Shown here: in pieces, positions 5,707 to 22,274 of the stretch
How positions within the stretch are numbered: position 1 is the stretch's first letter
Layout: each line of letters starts with the position of its first letter
Source of the DNA: Chloroflexota bacterium
GTDB lineage: Bacteria; Chloroflexota; Anaerolineae; Promineifilales; Promineifilaceae
Assembly (NCBI GenBank): GCA_022616275.1
Contig: JAKEFB010000153.1
Coordinates: 1-34,368, forward strand
Length of the DNA: 34,368 nucleotides
Direction of reading: 5' to 3'
Notes under the pieces: generated by a model
Databases searched by the model: none
What the model was told of the DNA's origin: nothing
Seen by the model: the letters and a program-made list of their open reading frames with translations, nothing else
Made by a program: the position numbers and the translations under genes

Positions 5707-7377
5707 CTACCTCCTCAACTGCCCCGCCTGCGCCACCAGGCCGGCAAACTCCGCCACCTCCTCGTCGTACGGTATCTGGGCTGCCAGCCGCTCGGCATAG
5801 ACGCTGAGCTGGCTGTAGCTCGTGTCGCCGGCCCAGTAGCTATAACGCAGCAGTTCGGCAAACTGGCTGACCACCACTGCCAGTTGATAGCGGGGCGTGG
5901 CCGCGTCAAAGGAAGTGGCCAGGTCCCAGGTGTTGACATTGCCGTTAATCTCCTGCACCTGGCGCGTCTGCGGCTCTTGCCAGCGCAGTTGGACCGTGGC
6001 CAGCCGGCCGGTCGCCCCGGGATAAAACTGGACCGCGTACAGCGCCGTCACCGTGTGGCCGGCCCCAATCTCCCCCGCGTCCACCGCGTCGTTGCGGAAA
6101 TCCGGGTCGGCCACCGCCCGGTTCTCGTAGCCGATCAGCCGGTACTGGCTGACCACCTCCGGGTTAAAGTCCACCTGGACCCTGGCGTCCAGGGCAATCA
6201 CCTGCAGCGTCGAGGTCAGGTCCTCCACAAACAACTTCTGCGCCTCGGCCAGCGTGTCCACGTAGGCGTAATTGCCGTCACCCTGGTCGGCCAGTTGCTC
6301 CATCAACACGTCGTTAAAATTGCCCATACCAAAGCCAACCGTCGTCAGGGTAATACCTGAGTCGGCGTAACCGCGAATTTGCTCGGCCAGCGCGTCCGGG
6401 TTCGTCACCCCCACGTTAGCCACCCCATCTGAGGCCAGGATAACCCGGTTAATGGCCCCCGGCCGGTAGGCGGCGTTGGCCATCTGGTAGCCCAGTTGCA
6501 GCCCTGCTTCGGCGTTAGTCGAGCCTTCCGGCTGCAGGGTGTAAATAGCACCAAGAATCACCCCTTTGTCATTGCCACCCGTCGGTTCCAGGACGACGCG
6601 AGCCTCCGTGCCGTAGACGGCGATAGCCACCACGTCGTCCGGCCGCAGTCGGTCCACCAACATCTCCAACGACTGCTTGACCAGCTCCAGGCGGTTCTCC
6701 TGGGCCATCGAGCCGGACACGTCAATGACAAAGGTCAGCGAAGCCGGCGGCCGCTGCGCCTCCGGCACGTCGTACCCCTGGACGCCAATCCGCAGCAGGT
6801 AACTACCGTCATAATGGAACGGCGACGGCGCGCCGTCGGCGTAAATAGCAAAGGCCACCTCCGGCGGGATGGGGTATTCCTGGTCAAAATAGTTGACGAA
6901 CTCCTCCACCCGAACTGCCTCCGGTGGCGGCATCAAGCCGTCCCGCAGGTAACGGCGCACCACGCTGTAGGAAGCCGTGTCCACGTCCAGGGCAAAGGTG
7001 GACAGATGGTCGTAACTCGTGGGAACAAACGGATTGACCCCGTAATCCTCAAAGAAATTATCAATGGGCGGTGTGGCCGCCGGCATCCCCACCGGCGAGG
7101 CCGTCGCCGCCGGCGAGTAGGTCGCCAGGGGCTGGGGCTGGTACGGGCTGGACGGCTCGGCCGTGGCCCCGGCTATCGCTGTCACCACCACCTGCTCCGT
7201 CACCACGCGGGTTACCTCCACCTGTGCCCCCTGTTCCTCATAAAAGTACTCTGTAGCCTGCGGCAAAGGCTCCTGGCCCGCCTGGCGGGTAACGCTGATC
7301 TGTTCGGCGTTACCTGCGCAAGCCGCCAACACAAAAGCGGCGACGATCAAAACAATCAAGGCGTGTCTGGTATTCAT
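5707..7377 (-). CDS. YfbK-like von Willebrand factor A lipoprotein
   Basis: A 556-aa secreted lipoprotein with an N-terminal signal and lipobox (VLAAC, Cys about residue 20). A Pro/Thr/Ala-rich linker follows to about 105, then the vWF-A N-terminal segment (VPTSYDHLSTFALDVDTASY...VEEFVNYFDQEYP). The VWA domain has a complete MIDAS start, DVSGSM, near residue 228. The YfbK C-terminal domain ends the protein (ALYAVQFYP, SYSQLSVYAERLA). It probably binds a metal-dependent ligand at the outer face of the membrane; the ligand is unknown. The start ATG is preceded by GGAGGA at a good distance (minus strand, about 7385-7390). The size fits YfbK homologues. Confidence 0.9.
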   Translation of the reverse strand: MNTRHALIVLIVAAFVLAACAGNAEQISVTRQAGQEPLPQATEYFYEEQGAQVEVTRVVTEQVVVTAIAGATAEPSSPYQPQPLATYSPAATASPVGMPAATPPIDNFFEDYGVNPFVPTSYDHLSTFALDVDTASYSVVRRYLRDGLMPPPEAVRVEEFVNYFDQEYPIPPEVAFAIYADGAPSPFHYDGSYLLRIGVQGYDVPEAQRPPASLTFVIDVSGSMAQENRLELVKQSLEMLVDRLRPDDVVAIAVYGTEARVVLEPTGGNDKGVILGAIYTLQPEGSTNAEAGLQLGYQMANAAYRPGAINRVILASDGVANVGVTNPDALAEQIRGYADSGITLTTVGFGMGNFNDVLMEQLADQGDGNYAYVDTLAEAQKLFVEDLTSTLQVIALDARVQVDFNPEVVSQYRLIGYENRAVADPDFRNDAVDAGEIGAGHTVTALYAVQFYPGATGRLATVQLRWQEPQTRQVQEINGNVNTWDLATSFDAATPRYQLAVVVSQFAELLRYSYWAGDTSYSQLSVYAERLAAQIPYDEEVAEFAGLVAQAGQLRR

Positions 7378-17635: not shown

Positions 17636-17664
17636 TAGACAGCGGCCAGACAACGTGATATAAA
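17636..17664 (+). promoter_or_regulatory. Strong promoter of the sulfur-assimilation operon leader
   Basis: TAGACA (17636-17641, 5 of 6) and TATAAA (17659-17664, 5 of 6) are spaced by exactly 17 bp. The -10 has an extended TGA directly before it (TGATATAAA). The -10 ends 6 nt before ATG 17671, so transcription should begin on or next to that ATG. Confidence 0.7.
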
Positions 17665-17670
17665 AGAGGC

Positions 17671-17763
17671 ATGTCTCGCACTATGGTTACCACCAATCAC
17701 GCTTGCGCCTGTTGTTGCCCGGAGGGCCTTGTCCCTTCGGCCGGCGGCCGGGCACCTGGTTGA
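17671..17763 (+). CDS. Leaderless polycysteine leader peptide for the cys operon
   Basis: A 30-codon ORF starting where transcription is predicted to start. It reads MSRTMVTTNH, then Ala-Cys-Ala-Cys-Cys-Cys-Pro (Cys codons 12, 14, 15 and 16, at 17704-17718), and ends with a Gly/Ala/Pro-rich tail and TGA at 17761. Four Cys codons in five are extremely unlikely by chance and make translation sensitive to charged Cys-tRNA. It is followed by competing hairpins and a strong intrinsic terminator, then by genes that make sulfide for cysteine synthesis. Leaderless polycysteine ORFs that attenuate cysteine operons are known in mycobacteria; this appears to be an independent or homologous case in another phylum. 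The peptide itself probably has no function. Confidence 0.75.
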   Translation: MSRTMVTTNHACACCCPEGLVPSAGGRAPG

Positions 17764-17870
17764 TTGACCGGCACCCCCCGCCAGCAGGCCTCAGGGCGAA
17801 GGCTCCTCACCGGTTTGTCGAGCATTCGCCTGAAAGAGTAACCCGAACACAGCGGCCCAGGAAAATGCTC
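17707..17870 (+). ncRNA. Leader RNA with mutually exclusive pairings (attenuator switch)
   Basis: Visible complementarities: GCCTGTTG (17707-17714, on the Cys codons) with CAGCAGGC (17782-17789); CCTTCG (17734-17739, inside the ORF) with CGAAGG (17797-17802); CAGGGCGAA (17792-17800) with TTCGCCTG (17825-17832), closed further by GCTC/GAGC (17802-17805 with 17820-17823); and GAGCATT (17820-17826) with AATGCTC (17864-17870). The last pairing invades the terminator stem, and the third one hides its left half. Ribosome position on the Cys codons could therefore choose between them. This is inferred from base pairing by eye, without energies. Confidence 0.55.
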
Positions 17871-17888
17871 CTGGGCCTTTTTGTTTTC
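17854..17888 (+). terminator. Strong intrinsic terminator / attenuator before the sulfite reductase operon
   Basis: A perfect 9-bp stem, GGCCCAGGA (17854-17862) and TCCTGGGCC (17869-17877), loop AAATGC, followed at once by TTTTTGTTTT. This is a textbook Rho-independent terminator. It lies 90 nt after the leader-peptide stop and about 375 nt before the first structural gene. Confidence 0.88.
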
Positions 17889-18117
17889 TACTAGATAACT
17901 GCTCAGGCCGTTCTCCTGACCGAGCCTGGGTGGCACGGTCGTGAGACCAGCCACAGCGAGCGTTTCTATACGGCAATGATGTTTTTCAAACAGCCAGACC
18001 CACAACCAGTGATGTGCATCTGTACCAGGCGGGGACGCTTTCGCCGCCGCCTGACCTCCCCTGCCCGTTAACCCCTCCCACCCGGCCGGCCCCCGCGAAA
18101 TCCCCCGCCAACAGTCC
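17889..18117 (+). other. Post-terminator leader with further hairpins
   Basis: No ORF is supported here. Hairpins visible on the plus strand: TCAGG-N6-CCTGA (17903-17918); GTGGC-AC-GGTC-GTGA-GACC-A-GCCAC (17930-17954), a nested 9-bp stem with a GNRA-like loop; and CAGGCGG with CCGCCTG at about 18027-18053. The piece GGGTGGCAC (17928-17936) resembles part of a T-box, but the rest of a T-box is not found. It may be a second layer of leader control. Confidence 0.4.
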
Positions 18118-18250
18118 GAGTGAGAGTCCTGAGTGAGAGTCAGAGTCTACTTCTTCACCTCTCACTCATCACTCATCACTCATCGCTCATCGCTCATCAC
18201 TCATCACTCATTGCTCGTAGTTGGCCTTGCCAACTGCGCTCATTGCTCAT
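18118..18250. repeat. CTCATCA array and GTAGTTGGC hairpin, copy 2
   Basis: Left part GAGTGAGAGTCCTGAGTGAG (from 18118) contains TGAGTGAGAG (18130-18139), the exact complement of CTCTCACTCA (18159-18168). From there a run of CTCATCAC/CTCATCGC words continues to about 18210. It ends in AGTTGGC-CTT-GCCAACT (18219-18235). The segment 18206-18225 matches 19 of 20 bases of the repeat upstream of the DUF1028 gene (5559-5578). Confidence 0.7.
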
Positions 18251-18264
18251 ATTAGGAGAACGAT

Positions 18265-19914
18265 ATGTCGGCCGTAACAAATAAAGTTGAAAACTTCAAG
18301 GGAGAGAGCGATTACCTTCGGGGAACCATTGGCCAGGAGTTGCACTCCGGGGAAAACCACTTTGGCGAGGCCAGCAAGCAACTCCTCAAGTTCCACGGCC
18401 TCTACCAGCAGGACGACCGCGACCAACGTGACGGCGCCCGCCGGCCGGAAAAAGAATATTCCTTCATGATCCGCAGCAAAATTCCCGGCGGCCGTTTGAC
18501 GGCCGAACAATACCTGGTCCACGACGAGCTGGCCGGCCGCTACGGCAACGGCACCCTGCGCATCACCACCCGCGAAGACTTCCAACTGCACGGCGTCCTC
18601 AAAGGTGAGCTGAAACAAACCCTGGCCGCCATGAACGAAACGCTCATTACCACCTTGGGCGCCTGCGGCGACCTCGTCCGCAACGTCATGTGCTGCCCCG
18701 TGCCACCCGGCGAACCGCTGCGGGCCGAGCTATACGCCTGCGCCCGCCGCATTTCCGACCACCTCCGGCCGCACACCAGGGCCTATCACGAAATCTGGCT
18801 CGATGGCGAAAAAGTATCCTCCGGCGAAACCGGGGAAGAGCCAATCTATGGCCAAAACTACCTGCCCCGCAAATTCAAAATCGCCATTGCTTACCCCGGC
18901 GATAACTGCGTGGACGTGTACACCCAGGACGTTGGCCTGGTCCCGGTTGTCCAGGGTGGGGCGCTCCAGGGCTATAACCTTCTGGTCGGCGGCGGCCTGG
19001 GTATGACCCACAACAAACCCGAAACCTTTCCCCGCCTGGCCGATGCCCTGGCCTTTGTCCTCCCGGCCGAGGTCGTCCCGGCCGTCGAGGCCGTCGTCAC
19101 CATCCACCGCGACCATGGCGACCGGGGCAACCGCAAGCACGCCCGGCTCAAGTACCTGGTCCACGACTGGGGCATCGAGCGCTTCCGGGCTGAGGTCGAG
19201 CGGCGGCTGGGCTACCGCCTCTCGCCAGTGGTTCCCACACCACCCTTTGAGCTGGAACTGCATCTCGGCTGGCACGAGCAGGGCGACGGCTGTGTCTACC
19301 TGGGCCTTTCCGTTGAGAACGGCCGCATCCAGGACACCGGGAATAGTGGCTTAAAGACCGGGCTGCGAGAGATCATCCGCGCTTTCCGGCCGGGCATCGC
19401 CCTGACCCCTAACCAGGACATCCTCCTCACCGGTCTGGACCCGGCCGACCGGGAACCTATCGAAGCTATCCTGCGCCGCTACGCCATCCCCACCCCTGGC
19501 CAACTGGCCAACGTCCAGTTGTACTCGATGGCCTGCCCGGCCCTGCCCACCTGCGGCCTGGCTCTGGCCGAGTCGGAACGGGCCTTGCCGGCCATCATTG
19601 ACGAACTGGAAGCCGAGCTGGCCCAACTCGGCCTGCAAGACGAGCGGCTGACCGTCCGCATGACCGGCTGCCCCAACGGCTGCGCCCGCCCCTACGTCGC
19701 CGACCTGGCCTTCGTCGGCCGCTCGGCCGACAAGTACGTCATCTACGTCGGCGGCCGCCGGGACGGCACCCGCCTCAACCGGCCTTACCAGGACCTCGTC
19801 CCCCGCGACGAGCTGGTGGCCACCATCCGGCCGCTCCTGGTCCACTTCAGCCAGGCCCGCCAACCCGGCGAGTCCTTCGGCGATTTCTGCCACCGGGTGG
19901 ATGTGGTTGTGTAA
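18265..19914 (+). CDS. Siroheme [4Fe-4S] sulfite reductase (assimilatory)
   Basis: A 549-aa enzyme reducing sulfite to sulfide with six electrons; it sits in the cytoplasm. The siroheme/iron-sulfur signature is complete: Cys 424 and 430 (C-P-A-L-P-T-C) with Cys 469 and 473 (TGCPNGCARPYV). The N-terminal half has the ferredoxin-like repeat (FMIRSKIPGG, GNGTLRITTREDFQLHG) and RNVMCCPVP near 140-146. NYLPRKFKIAIAYP and GYNLLVGGGLGMTH are standard for this family. It resembles the CysI hemoprotein more than nitrite reductase, and the siroheme and cysH neighbours agree. The start ATG has AGGAG six bases upstream. The last codons (VDVVV) are written by the repeat that fills the following gap. Confidence 0.9.
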   Translation: MSAVTNKVENFKGESDYLRGTIGQELHSGENHFGEASKQLLKFHGLYQQDDRDQRDGARRPEKEYSFMIRSKIPGGRLTAEQYLVHDELAGRYGNGTLRITTREDFQLHGVLKGELKQTLAAMNETLITTLGACGDLVRNVMCCPVPPGEPLRAELYACARRISDHLRPHTRAYHEIWLDGEKVSSGETGEEPIYGQNYLPRKFKIAIAYPGDNCVDVYTQDVGLVPVVQGGALQGYNLLVGGGLGMTHNKPETFPRLADALAFVLPAEVVPAVEAVVTIHRDHGDRGNRKHARLKYLVHDWGIERFRAEVERRLGYRLSPVVPTPPFELELHLGWHEQGDGCVYLGLSVENGRIQDTGNSGLKTGLREIIRAFRPGIALTPNQDILLTGLDPADREPIEAILRRYAIPTPGQLANVQLYSMACPALPTCGLALAESERALPAIIDELEAELAQLGLQDERLTVRMTGCPNGCARPYVADLAFVGRSADKYVIYVGGRRDGTRLNRPYQDLVPRDELVATIRPLLVHFSQARQPGESFGDFCHRVDVVV

Positions 19915-19998: not shown

Positions 19999-20811
19999 AT
20001 GCGTAACCCAGGTATCGTCTACATTGTCGGCGCGGGGCCGGGCGACCCCGAGCTGATTACGGTGCGCGGCCTCAACTGCCTGCGCCAGGCCGGCGTCGTC
20101 GTCTACGACCGGCTGGCCAACCCCCGGCTGCTGGACGAGGCTCCCCTGTCGGCCCGCCTCATTGACGCCGGCAAAGCCCCCGGCCGCCACCCCCTGAGCC
20201 AGGAAGCGATCAACGATCGACTCATTGCCGAGGCCCGCCAGGGCCACGTCGTCGTCCGCCTGAAGGGCGGCGACCCCTTCCTCTTCGGCCGGGGCGGTGA
20301 AGAGTGCCAGGCCCTGGCCGGGGCCGGCATTTCCTTCGAGGTCGTCCCTGGCGTCAGCAGCGCCCTGGCTGTGCCGGCCTACGCCGGCATTCCCGTCACC
20401 CACCGCGGTCTGGCTGGCGCCGTCACCATCGTCACCGGCCACACCGCCGGGGCGGCCGGCTGCGTCGTGGACTGGGCCAGCCTGCCGGCCGGCGGCACGT
20501 TGGTCATCTTGATGGGCCTGCGCCACCTGGCCACCATTGTTCAACAACTGCTGGCTCACGGCCGCCCGCCCTATACCCCCGTCGCCGTCATCCAGTCCGG
20601 CACGACGGCCGGCCAGGTGGTCGTCGAGGGTACGCTGGCCGGCATCGTCGAGCAAGCGAGGGGAATCCAGTCGCCGGCGATTATCGTCGTCGGTGAAGTC
20701 GTCCGCCTCCGCCGCCAGTTGGCCTGGTTCGACCCGCTCATGATTCGCGTCACCTTAAATTCGCGTCATTCGTCAGCTTTGCGTTATTCGCGTTTCTCGG
20801 AGATAGCATGA
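19999..20811 (+). CDS. cobA: Uroporphyrinogen-III C-methyltransferase (SUMT)
   Basis: A 270-aa SAM-dependent enzyme that methylates uroporphyrinogen III twice to precorrin-2, the first step to siroheme. Motifs: VGAGPGDPELITVRG (11-25), VVYDRLANP, RLKGGDPFLFGRGGEE, VVPGVSSALAVPAYAGIPVTHR, GTLVILMGLRHL and PAIIVVGEVV. It feeds the siroheme needed by the upstream sulfite reductase. AGGAG is five bases upstream of the ATG, and the TGA overlaps the cysH start (ATGA). Oddity: the normal C-terminus seems to be reached at about residue 247, and the last 23 residues are encoded by a TTCGCG-type intergenic repeat, so the stop has been moved downstream. Confidence 0.92.
   Translation: MRNPGIVYIVGAGPGDPELITVRGLNCLRQAGVVVYDRLANPRLLDEAPLSARLIDAGKAPGRHPLSQEAINDRLIAEARQGHVVVRLKGGDPFLFGRGGEECQALAGAGISFEVVPGVSSALAVPAYAGIPVTHRGLAGAVTIVTGHTAGAAGCVVDWASLPAGGTLVILMGLRHLATIVQQLLAHGRPPYTPVAVIQSGTTAGQVVVEGTLAGIVEQARGIQSPAIIVVGEVVRLRRQLAWFDPLMIRVTLNSRHSSALRYSRFSEIA
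20742..20796. repeat. TTCGCG degenerate array inside the cobA 3' end
   Basis: Words ATTCGCGTCA, TTCGCGTCATTCG, GCGTTATTCGCGTT repeat up to the cysH Shine-Dalgarno. The array is translated as the C-terminal tail of CobA. Its wording is related to 14531-14590. Confidence 0.55.
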
Positions 20812-21542
20812 ACAGCAACTTACAATGGAGTCTTGAAACGTTGGCCAAAGTCAACGACCACTTTTCGGTCTGTGGCCCTGAGGACGTGTTAGGATGGGCG
20901 CTGGCCGCGTTCGCCCCTGAAATTGCCCTGGCGACCGGCTTCGGGCCGTCGGGTGTGGTCTTAATGCACCTGGTCGCCCGTCTCCGGCCGGAGACGACGA
21001 TCTGCTACCTGGACACCGGCCTGCTCTTCCCGGAGACGTACGATTTACGCGGCCAACTGGCCCGGCGGTTGGGGATTCGCTTCACCCGGCTACACTCAGA
21101 GTTGTCGCTGGAAGCCCAGGCGGCCGGACACGGCCCGGCGCTGTGGGAGCGCAACCCCGACCTCTGCTGCCACCTCCGCAAGGTCGAGCCGCTGCGCCGC
21201 TTCCTGGCCACCCAGCGGGCCTGGATCAGTGGCATCCGCCGCGACCAGGGGCCGACCCGCGCCAGGACGGAGATGGTGACCTGGGATGTGGCCAACGGCC
21301 TGGTCAAGGTCAATCCCCTGGCCTACTGGACCCGCGATCAGGTCTGGGCTTATATCCGCCATCACGATCTGCCCACCAATGTCCTGCACGACGAAGGCTA
21401 CTCCAGCATTGGTTGCATCCCCTGCACCCGGCCGGTAGCCCCTGGCGAGGACGAGCGCGCCGGCCGCTGGTCCGGCCAGGCCAAGACCGAGTGCGGTATC
21501 CACGTCCAGCCCGACGGGCGGTTGGTCCGCACGGTGGGGTAA
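20808..21542 (+). CDS. cysH: Adenylylsulfate (APS) reductase, thioredoxin-dependent
   Basis: A 244-aa enzyme reducing activated sulfate to sulfite. It has the [4Fe-4S] Cys set that separates APS reductases from PAPS reductases: CC at 120-121 (CCHLRKVEPL) and Cys 203 and 206 (SIGCIPCTRPV). GRWSGQAKTECGIH follows, with catalytic Cys 229. The PP-loop-like N-terminus reads ATGFGPSGVVLMHL, and SGIRRDQGPTR binds the nucleotide. Translational coupling with cobA is likely: ATGA overlap, GGAG five bases before the ATG. The substrate-activating ATP sulfurylase is not in this window. The length and motifs are standard. Confidence 0.93.
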   Translation: MNSNLQWSLETLAKVNDHFSVCGPEDVLGWALAAFAPEIALATGFGPSGVVLMHLVARLRPETTICYLDTGLLFPETYDLRGQLARRLGIRFTRLHSELSLEAQAAGHGPALWERNPDLCCHLRKVEPLRRFLATQRAWISGIRRDQGPTRARTEMVTWDVANGLVKVNPLAYWTRDQVWAYIRHHDLPTNVLHDEGYSSIGCIPCTRPVAPGEDERAGRWSGQAKTECGIHVQPDGRLVRTVG

Positions 21543-21546
21543 TTAT

Positions 21547-21598
21547 GTGGTTATGTGGGATGCTGCCCAGACACACCTACACAACCACACAACTACAG
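21547..21598. repeat. ACACAACC degenerate inverted array, copy 2
   Basis: GTGGTTATGTGG (21547-21558) pairs with ACACAACCAC (21579-21588), allowing one G-U. The intervening GGGATGCTGCCC-like segment can form an inner hairpin. It abuts the AGGAGG of sirC. It is the same family as 19903-19988 in the same operon. Confidence 0.65.
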
Positions 21599-21605
21599 GA
21601 GGTCC

Positions 21606-22274
21606 ATGAAACCCTACCCCATCTTCTTAGTCGGTCTGGCCAGGCGGCGCTGCCTCGTCGTTGGCGGCGGGCAGGAGGCGGAGCGCAAGGTAGCAGAGTT
21701 GCTGGCCTGTGAGGCGGCGCTGACGGTTATCAGCCCGGCCGTGACGGAACGGCTGCGCCAGTGGGCCGAGGCGGGGCGCTTGAGCTGGATTGAGCGGGCC
21801 TACCGGCTGGGCGACCTGCGCGGTGCCTTCCTGGTCGTTGCCGAAAAGGCGGACGCGGCGACAAACGAACAAATCTGGCAAGAAGCAGAGGCCGAGGGCG
21901 CGTTGGTCAACGTCATGGACGATATCCCCCACTGCGCCTTCATCGCCGGCTCGGTGGTGCGCCGGGGGCCGCTGGTGGTCAGCATCTCCACCAGCGGCGT
22001 GGCCCCGGCGTTGGCCGTGCGGCTGCGGCAGCGGATGGAGGAAGAGTTTGGCCCGGAGTACGAGCTATTCCTGGAGTGGCTGGCCGCCCTGCGCCGGCCG
22101 CTGGCCGCCCGCTACCCCGACTTCGAGGAACGCCGCCGGCGCTGGTATGAACTGGTGGACTCGGACGTGCTGGAATTGCTGCGCGCCGGCCGGGTGGAGG
22201 AGGCGCGACGGCGGGTGGCGGAGATTGCCGGGGCGGAATGCGATTTACCCACCAGACATTTCGTGGTACGTTAA
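21606..22274 (+). CDS. sirC: Precorrin-2 dehydrogenase / sirohydrochlorin ferrochelatase (Met8/CysG-N type)
   Basis: A 222-aa NAD-dependent enzyme completing siroheme: it oxidises precorrin-2 and may insert iron. The N-terminus FLVGLARRRCLVVGGGQEAERK is the family's Rossmann motif. LGDLRGAFLVVAEKADAATN and VNVMDDIPHCAFIAGSVVRRGPLVV carry the conserved Asp, and STSGVAPALAVRLRQRMEE follows. The start ATG 21606 has a perfect AGGAGG 3 nt away; the longer frame from 21555 would translate the repeat and is rejected. It is the last gene of the operon. Its 3' end overlaps the convergent unknown gene by 30 nt. Confidence 0.9.
   Translation: MKPYPIFLVGLARRRCLVVGGGQEAERKVAELLACEAALTVISPAVTERLRQWAEAGRLSWIERAYRLGDLRGAFLVVAEKADAATNEQIWQEAEAEGALVNVMDDIPHCAFIAGSVVRRGPLVVSISTSGVAPALAVRLRQRMEEEFGPEYELFLEWLAALRRPLAARYPDFEERRRRWYELVDSDVLELLRAGRVEEARRRVAEIAGAECDLPTRHFVVR

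Follow-up and report, generated by a model that had tools for sequence, protein, structure and literature searches.

A candidate cysteine-sensing transcription attenuator ahead of the sir-cobA-cysH-sirC operon of a Chloroflexota bacterium and its recurrence among relatives of the same class

Introduction

The locus described here raises the question of how a sulfite reductase operon, sir-cobA-cysH-sirC, is controlled in a Chloroflexota bacterium in which this operon is preceded by a short open reading frame (ORF) with clustered cysteine codons and by an intrinsic terminator. The DNA analysed, hereafter called the window, is the whole stretch of 34,368 nt of JAKEFB010000153.1 (assembly GCA_022616275.1; class Anaerolineae, family Promineifilaceae), which is contig 54 of a genome of 8.53 Mb in 309 contigs. 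A first-pass annotation, made from the letters alone, had proposed that low Cys-tRNA stalls ribosomes on a leaderless polycysteine leader and opens the operon, following the logic known from mycobacteria. Mycobacterial polycysteine ORFs were reported before cysA2 and nirA (PMC4633059); in the excerpts available of later articles they regulate the translation of the downstream gene (PMC9031893), and the leaderless ones are presented as a case of translation attenuation (Canestrari et al. 2020; PMC13236596).

Our analysis points to a different member of this family of mechanisms, namely a ribosome-mediated, Cys-tRNA-sensing transcription attenuator controlling the sir-cobA-cysH-sirC operon, a reading to which we assign a probability of about 0.8.

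Results

The first-pass annotation had described a promoter whose -10 element ends 6 nt before an ATG, and, after it, an ORF of 30 codons in which codons 12, 14, 15 and 16 specify Cys; both descriptions were borne out, the former by base-by-base reading and the latter by translation (Table 1). The two promoter elements, TAGACA and TATAAA, are 17 nt apart as read from the sequence, and with 6 nt between the -10 element and the ATG at 17671, standard geometry predicts that transcription starts at the A of this ATG. Only this ATG, among the 707 present on both strands of the window, has a promoter of such a score placed within 2 nt, and when GTG and TTG starts are counted too the figure is 2 of 2743; the score was of our own construction and was devised after the window promoter had been seen. 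A standard promoter scan gave no match at this site because it requires T as the last base of the -10 element. The Cys codons of the ORF start at 17704, 17710, 17713 and 17716, and shuffling the 700-nt region upstream of sir in the window produced a Cys-cluster ORF in 1 of 20 copies.

Table 1. Features predicted at the sir locus of the window
Feature	Position	Strand	Basis
-35 element TAGACA	17636..17641	+	sequence reading and promoter scoring
-10 element TATAAA, extended, TG at 17656-17657	17659..17664	+	sequence reading and promoter scoring
Leader ORF, 30 codons and stop, MSRTMVTTNHACACCCPEGLVPSAGGRAPG	17671..17763	+	ORF translation
Putative regulatory Cys codons 12, 14, 15, 16 (codon 13 is Ala)	17704..17718	+	codon reading
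Segment 1, predicted free upon stall at Cys codons, covered by a ribosome at the stop codon	17734..17749	+	inverted repeat I3, constrained folding
Segment 2, predicted partner of segment 1 or segment 3	17787..17805	+	inverted repeats I3 and I15, constrained folding
Segment 3, putative antiterminator arm; would pair with segment 4 once segment 1 occupies segment 2	17820..17832	+	inverted repeats I15 and I6, constrained folding
Segment 4, overlapping terminator 5' arm and loop	17858..17870	+	inverted repeat I6, constrained folding
Intrinsic terminator GGCCCAGGA-AAATGC-TCCTGGGCC and T-rich tail	17854..17887	+	terminator scan
sir, assimilatory sulfite reductase hemoprotein	18265..19914	+	NCBIfam NF010029, 756.6 bits, cut-off 457
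cobA, uroporphyrinogen-III C-methyltransferase	19999..20811	+	NF004790 above cut-off
cysH, phosphoadenylyl-sulfate (APS/PAPS) reductase	20808..21542	+	NF002537 above cut-off
sirC-like siroheme synthase, CysG N-terminal domain (start chosen by us; the ORF as listed begins at 21555)	21606..22274	+	TIGR01470 above cut-off

Competing hairpins and an intrinsic terminator had likewise been claimed to follow the ORF and to precede sir-cobA-cysH-sirC, and a search for inverted repeats, a terminator scan and NCBIfam profiles agreed with this claim. Three inverted repeats compete with one another (17734-17749/17787-17802, 17795-17805/17820-17830 and 17820-17832/17858-17870), and the four segments of Table 1 were chosen after the sequence had been seen. 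The terminator hairpin (17854-17877) comprises 9 pairs, 7 of them G-C, and is followed by the tail TTTTTGTTTT; the fold of 17671-17888 was better than that of 200 of 200 shuffles (z -2.66).

This arrangement would work as follows. A ribosome would initiate on the leader ORF and, with ample Cys-tRNA, reach the stop codon at 17761, where it would cover segment 1; segments 2 and 3 would then pair, the terminator would form and the operon would be off. With Cys-tRNA in short supply, the ribosome would stall at codons 12-16, leaving segment 1 free to pair with segment 2, and segment 3 would pair with segment 4, which overlaps the terminator, so that RNA polymerase would read through and the operon would be on. 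The transcription start, the translation of the leader, the stalling and the response to cysteine are here inferred. The relay of three pairings would be the window's own version, in its longer spacer; in relatives with shorter spacers, the RNA that separates the terminator from the Cys codons would itself pair with the 5' arm of the terminator.

The first-pass annotation had named the retention of the Cys codons in relatives as a check of its proposal. Sir orthologs are patchy, being found in 17 of 397 genomes of the class, our own included (E below 1e-60), and none of 35 genomes of the same family contains a full-length Sir, matches there being partial and distant, or absent; thus, the conservation test covers only loci from beyond the family. 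The nearest orthologs are those of G187 (locus L119), 62% identical, and G355 (L120), 64% identical. The search criterion was a short ORF (60 codons or fewer) located in the 700 nt upstream and containing 3 or more Cys in a stretch of 5 codons. Such an ORF was found in 11 of 16 class loci of a first set, whereas the antisense strand gave 0 of 16 and dinucleotide shuffles gave an expectation of 1.3 of 16; this set was not blind, since the criterion was set after its loci had been looked at. With the identical criterion, a second set of 15 new loci from two order-level searches gave 13 hits on the sense strand and 1 on the antisense strand; some of these loci come from genera already represented in the first set (G780, G785, G863). 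Conservation of the Cys codons was seen in both sets.

In the final tally, a Cys-cluster leader lies ahead of sir in 25 of the 30 relatives having upstream sequence; L123 and L284 were added from wider windows, L292 has no upstream sequence, and L129 was dropped, its Cys-cluster ORF being rejected as a leader as its frame lies inside another open frame. When the window and the 30 relatives were subjected to the same search for each amino acid, Cys clusters appeared in 25 of 31 sense strands versus 1 of 31 antisense strands, and no comparable skew was seen for the other 19 amino acids, the next sense excess being that of Leu (19 versus 9). Outside the class we found no enrichment, either at Sir loci of other classes of the phylum (6 of 55 versus 4 of 55 antisense) or in 80 named records among the matches listed (5 of 80 versus 6 of 80 antisense), which are mostly from other phyla, with some Chloroflexota and at least 3 also in the first group.

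These controls bear on the proposal that a metabolite riboswitch or a Cys T-box governs the operon and that the ORF arose by chance. T-boxes and SAM riboswitches have been reported in Chloroflexi (PMC3766115, available in part), and SAM-I/IV matches occur elsewhere in two loci of family f47. Nevertheless, no Rfam family matched at its gathering score in the window, 19 loci of relatives gave 3 matches of which none lay on a leader, and the antisense, shuffle and amino-acid controls make a fortuitous ORF unlikely; we regard this explanation as extremely improbable.

The five relatives without a leader adjoining sir (L119, L125, L129, L130 and L131) all have another gene directly before sir, as judged by eye for L131, and in the four of these loci that were examined further upstream, the head of the cluster likewise showed no leader with a terminator. 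G187 (L119), one of the two genomes with the nearest orthologs, is thus without a detected leader, and this lowered our confidence in the attenuator reading.

Of the 25 relatives with a leader, 21 also have an intrinsic terminator behind it. Nine of the 25 carry two leader-terminator units in tandem (L121, L124, L126, L127, L286, L288, L289, L290 and L294), with L124, L126, L127 and L294 belonging to one genus, and two leaders and a single terminator were detected at L120. At L121, inspection by eye showed the terminator 3' arm sequence a second time just past the second leader's stop codon, where the RNA can therefore pair with the 5' arm of the terminator. In the leaders of family f39 (L128, L132, L281 and L282), the ORF ends in extreme runs of Cys codons (e.g. 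...SSSCCCCCCSCLCS) and no strong terminator comes after it, weak matches being found only in L132 and L282; these are possibly subject to Rho-dependent or translational control.

The f39 leaders are among the facts that speak for attenuation or coupling of translation of the mycobacterial type, in which translating the Cys codons would make the following gene's start more or less accessible, and the terminator would be incidental or serve only to end other transcripts. At L269, the second f47 cysP leader, which overlaps the start of the gene for a sulfate-binding protein, can be cited in the same sense. However, a terminator follows the leader in the window as well as in the 21 relatives mentioned above, and the 501 nt that separate the leader stop codon from sir in the window make direct coupling to sir unlikely here. 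We therefore hold this explanation to be quite unlikely for the operon under study.

The comparison of leader peptides across families, made by inspection, showed that Cys clusters are common to them and little else, length and Cys spacing being different. That such peptides might act in trans, for instance as metal- or thiol-binding small proteins unrelated to the terminator, would agree with their richness in Cys and with their plausible predicted promoters; the absence of a common length or Cys spacing and the recurrence of leader and terminator as a unit, at times in tandem, before different genes of the cysteine pathway make it very improbable.

As to the leaderless start claimed by the first-pass annotation, promoter geometry, scored with our own scheme, predicts the +1 on the ATG of the window, but a similar geometry (+1 on the ATG in the window, or 1 nt before it in L283, L284 and L291) holds in only 4 of 26 leaders. 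The predicted 5' untranslated region is 4 nt long in L132, about 90 nt in L120 and about 15-60 nt in most other leaders. A leaderless start is thus no defining trait of the group.

The effect of a stalled ribosome on RNA folding was compared unit by unit, with the A site placed at the last clustered Cys codon or at the stop codon. The folded RNA ended just before the 3' arm of the terminator, and the readout was the pairing of the 5' arm with upstream RNA. A first run used a redundant set of 31 units; the set analysed further had 26 units, without the near-duplicates L124, L127, L290 and L294 and the long overlapping ORF of L288. In this set the 5' arm of the terminator was more sequestered upon a Cys stall, with a mean difference of 0.38 versus 0.11 in shuffles of the spacer, and 23 of the 26 units lay above their own null mean (Wilcoxon P 3.8e-6; 7.5e-6 without the window). 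Only 7 of the 26 units individually exceeded at least 95% of their own shuffles; the second unit of L126, L291 and the cysK leader of L203 were not above the null mean, and L284 equalled it. The units of the cysK, cysP and cysE-like leaders gave differences of -0.08, 0.29 and 0.13, none of which beat 95% of the shuffles.

For the window alone the difference between stall and stop was modest (0.63 versus 0.46), 16% of shuffles being as good. The leader stop codon is 90 nt from the terminator in the window, compared with 22-51 nt in the other 25 units. When the window RNA was folded to 17868, the pairing of segments 3 and 4 had a probability of 0.80 with a stall at Cys12, 0.53 at Cys14, 0.00 at Cys16 and 0.00 with the ribosome at the stop codon; folding to 17872 gave 0.84, 0.82, 0.59 and 0.20, respectively, and the RNA without a ribosome gave 0.02 at 17868 and 0.44 at 17872. 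Once the hairpin is complete (RNA to 17877), the terminator prevails in every state of this equilibrium model, which implies that the switch must be kinetic. Taken as a group, the modelled folds are shifted towards antitermination by a ribosome stalled at the Cys codons, the effect being weak for the window.

The weakness of the window's own pairings leads to the possibility that the attenuator operated in a donor or an ancestor and has been bypassed or has decayed in this genome, sir being driven from a promoter-like site just before the gene and repeats having come to lie between the terminator and sir. The last terminator is 32-88 nt from the aligned Sir start in 20 of the 21 relatives having both leader and terminator, and the corresponding gap in the window is 387 nt long and contains repeats present elsewhere in the genome. 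A promoter-like match, weaker than that of the leader (score 11.8), is found immediately before sir with its +1 at 18262, and the 35 genomes of the same family that contain no full-length Sir match would fit such a history. Against it, the promoter, the ORF and the terminator are all intact in the window, and transcripts from the site before sir would begin past the Shine-Dalgarno-like AGGAGA at 18254-18259. The long gap alone is no sign of decay, as the sole detected terminator of L120, which belongs to one of the two nearest orthologs, also ends 493 nt before the Sir start. A bypass in this genome, which we consider unlikely, is compatible with the attenuator reading for the class.

As to the composition of the gap, positions 17896-17960 hold a 65-nt interspersed repeat with 7 further copies among the matches listed for the genome (84-91% identity), and positions 18162-18250 hold a TCACTCA heptamer array of 7.1 copies in a stretch with more than 30 similar sites in the genome. 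At L120, the second leader is located between the terminator and sir.

Leaders of this kind also precede other genes of cysteine metabolism. All three f47 genomes examined carry them before both cysP and cysK-cysE. At the f47 cysP cluster, a leader (for L269, MSRTLLASTDCAMCCCP...) and a terminator are followed by a second Cys-rich ORF; at L269 this second leader (1537-1680) runs into the sulfate-binding protein gene, which begins at 1667, and this overlap suggests that translational coupling is added there to transcription attenuation. For the f47 cysK-cysE leaders, a terminator was seen in both genomes inspected for one, and in 2 of 4 f5 genomes a leader and a terminator precede a cysE-like gene whose score does not reach the cut-off of the family.

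The leader of the window scored 20.4 bits against a profile of the three f47 cysP leaders, the best of 1000 shuffles keeping the CACCC core reaching 16.4 bits, a similarity at sequence level that hints at common descent. A profile of the MSRT...CxCCCP leaders matched 55 of the 397 class genomes at E of at most 0.1, about the level of chance, with a best E of 3e-4 apart from the four sequences used to build the model. These matches were dismissed as chance: of nine loci that were read, several had the match inside longer open frames, and none had a terminator-like hairpin within 400 nt, except for a weak one in L318.

In our own genome, no leader was found at the cysT cluster (G000:C270) over a stretch of 3.6 kb, the Cys-rich frames present there lying in or near coding frames. 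Among relatives, 14 of 30 CysT loci were examined and 3, all from f47, had a leader and a terminator; 12 of 30 CysE loci were examined and 5 had leaders. With leaders at only part of these loci, control of a whole regulon is seen in some families only. A broader picture, which we consider somewhat probable, is that of a class-wide cysteine-attenuation regulon in which fast-evolving Cys leaders with terminators, often two in series, would govern sulfate uptake (cysP), sulfate reduction (the sir operon) and cysteine synthesis (cysK-cysE) and might stand in for a specialised regulatory protein, with some lineages being leaderless and f39 having terminator-free, mycobacterium-like forms.

Two further elements were observed in these gene clusters. 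In G093 (L234; L263 about 5760-5868) a Cys-rich frame, MERMHMLRYSALQQMCWLSPAGLKTRSCCRFLCCA, which may be an internal leader, lies between the cobA that follows sir and the gene for a sulfate-binding protein. SAM-I/IV riboswitches occur near f47 sir clusters at L124:4-125 and L126:4454-4575, that of L126 on the strand opposite to sir.

Discussion

Our analysis places a predicted attenuator, with its transcription terminator, before a sulfate-assimilation operon in a phylum for which full-text searches, covering few subscription papers, showed no report of a cysteine attenuator. The promoter, the ORF, the Cys cluster, the terminator, the possible pairings and the recurrence in the class are computational observations.

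The first-pass annotation had assigned to this locus the same logic as in mycobacteria. The part of this claim that stands is the short ORF, bearing a run of Cys codons and placed at the start of the transcript (a predicted start in our case) before sulfur-assimilation genes, common to the mycobacterial ORFs and to the window. What differs is the intrinsic terminator at 17854-17877 and the Chloroflexota host, as the mycobacterial ORFs, described as translation attenuators, have no conserved terminator hairpin in the available text of PMC1262725. For this reason, we do not class the leader among the mycobacterial-type attenuators, which are terminator-free. In that same report, Seliverstov et al. 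(2005) presented candidate cys leader peptides for Mycobacterium, Propionibacterium acnes and Bifidobacterium longum, with runs of Cys codons before cys or cbs operons; in the part available to us no terminators were found at them, and Rho-dependent termination was suggested. The f39 loci L128, L132, L281 and L282 resemble these terminator-free actinobacterial leaders.

The system of the window, with its terminator, is closer to the attenuator predicted before cysS in Rhodobacterales (PMC8632094, seen in part) than to the mycobacterial form. This element, uORFC-8-2, consists of an upstream ORF with Cys codons and an intrinsic terminator, has a conserved RNA consensus, and was proposed to act by ribosome-mediated attenuation responding to Cys-tRNA. 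It differs in having two tandem Cys codons, in preceding a tRNA synthetase gene and in belonging to the Alphaproteobacteria; the leaders described here have 3 to about 10 Cys codons and the genes concerned are sir, cobA, cysH and sirC, of sulfate assimilation. The order of regulatory codons followed by competing hairpins is shared with the classical trp, his and ilv attenuators. In Streptomyces lividans, trpL1, ilvL and leuL2 are leaderless leader peptides followed by apparent Rho-independent terminators (PMC8079986). The classical attenuators and the Streptomyces leaders respond to other amino acids, and none is assigned to cysteine in the portion of PMC8079986 available. A work of 2010 (PMC2965389), also seen in part, stated that leader-peptide systems were known to its authors only in Proteobacteria and Actinobacteria, and added Firmicutes.

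The principle is thus already known; what is new is the host group, the genes, the terminators, the tandem arrangement and the existence of terminator-free forms in the same class. If our reading is correct, terminator-type cysteine attenuators across the class would extend the mechanism to the phylum Chloroflexota, and the forms with and without a terminator that accompany the same gene would offer a natural series in which the evolution of attenuators can be tested. Part of the cysteine regulon would also become predictable from sequence in bacteria that are poorly cultured.

Of the leaders listed for S. lividans, the leaderless metL (MSTTSDRTPATEATTTPGARCMCRRMCAF; PMC8079986, Table 4, in the part available) contains three Cys codons near its end, and it might sense cysteine instead of methionine.
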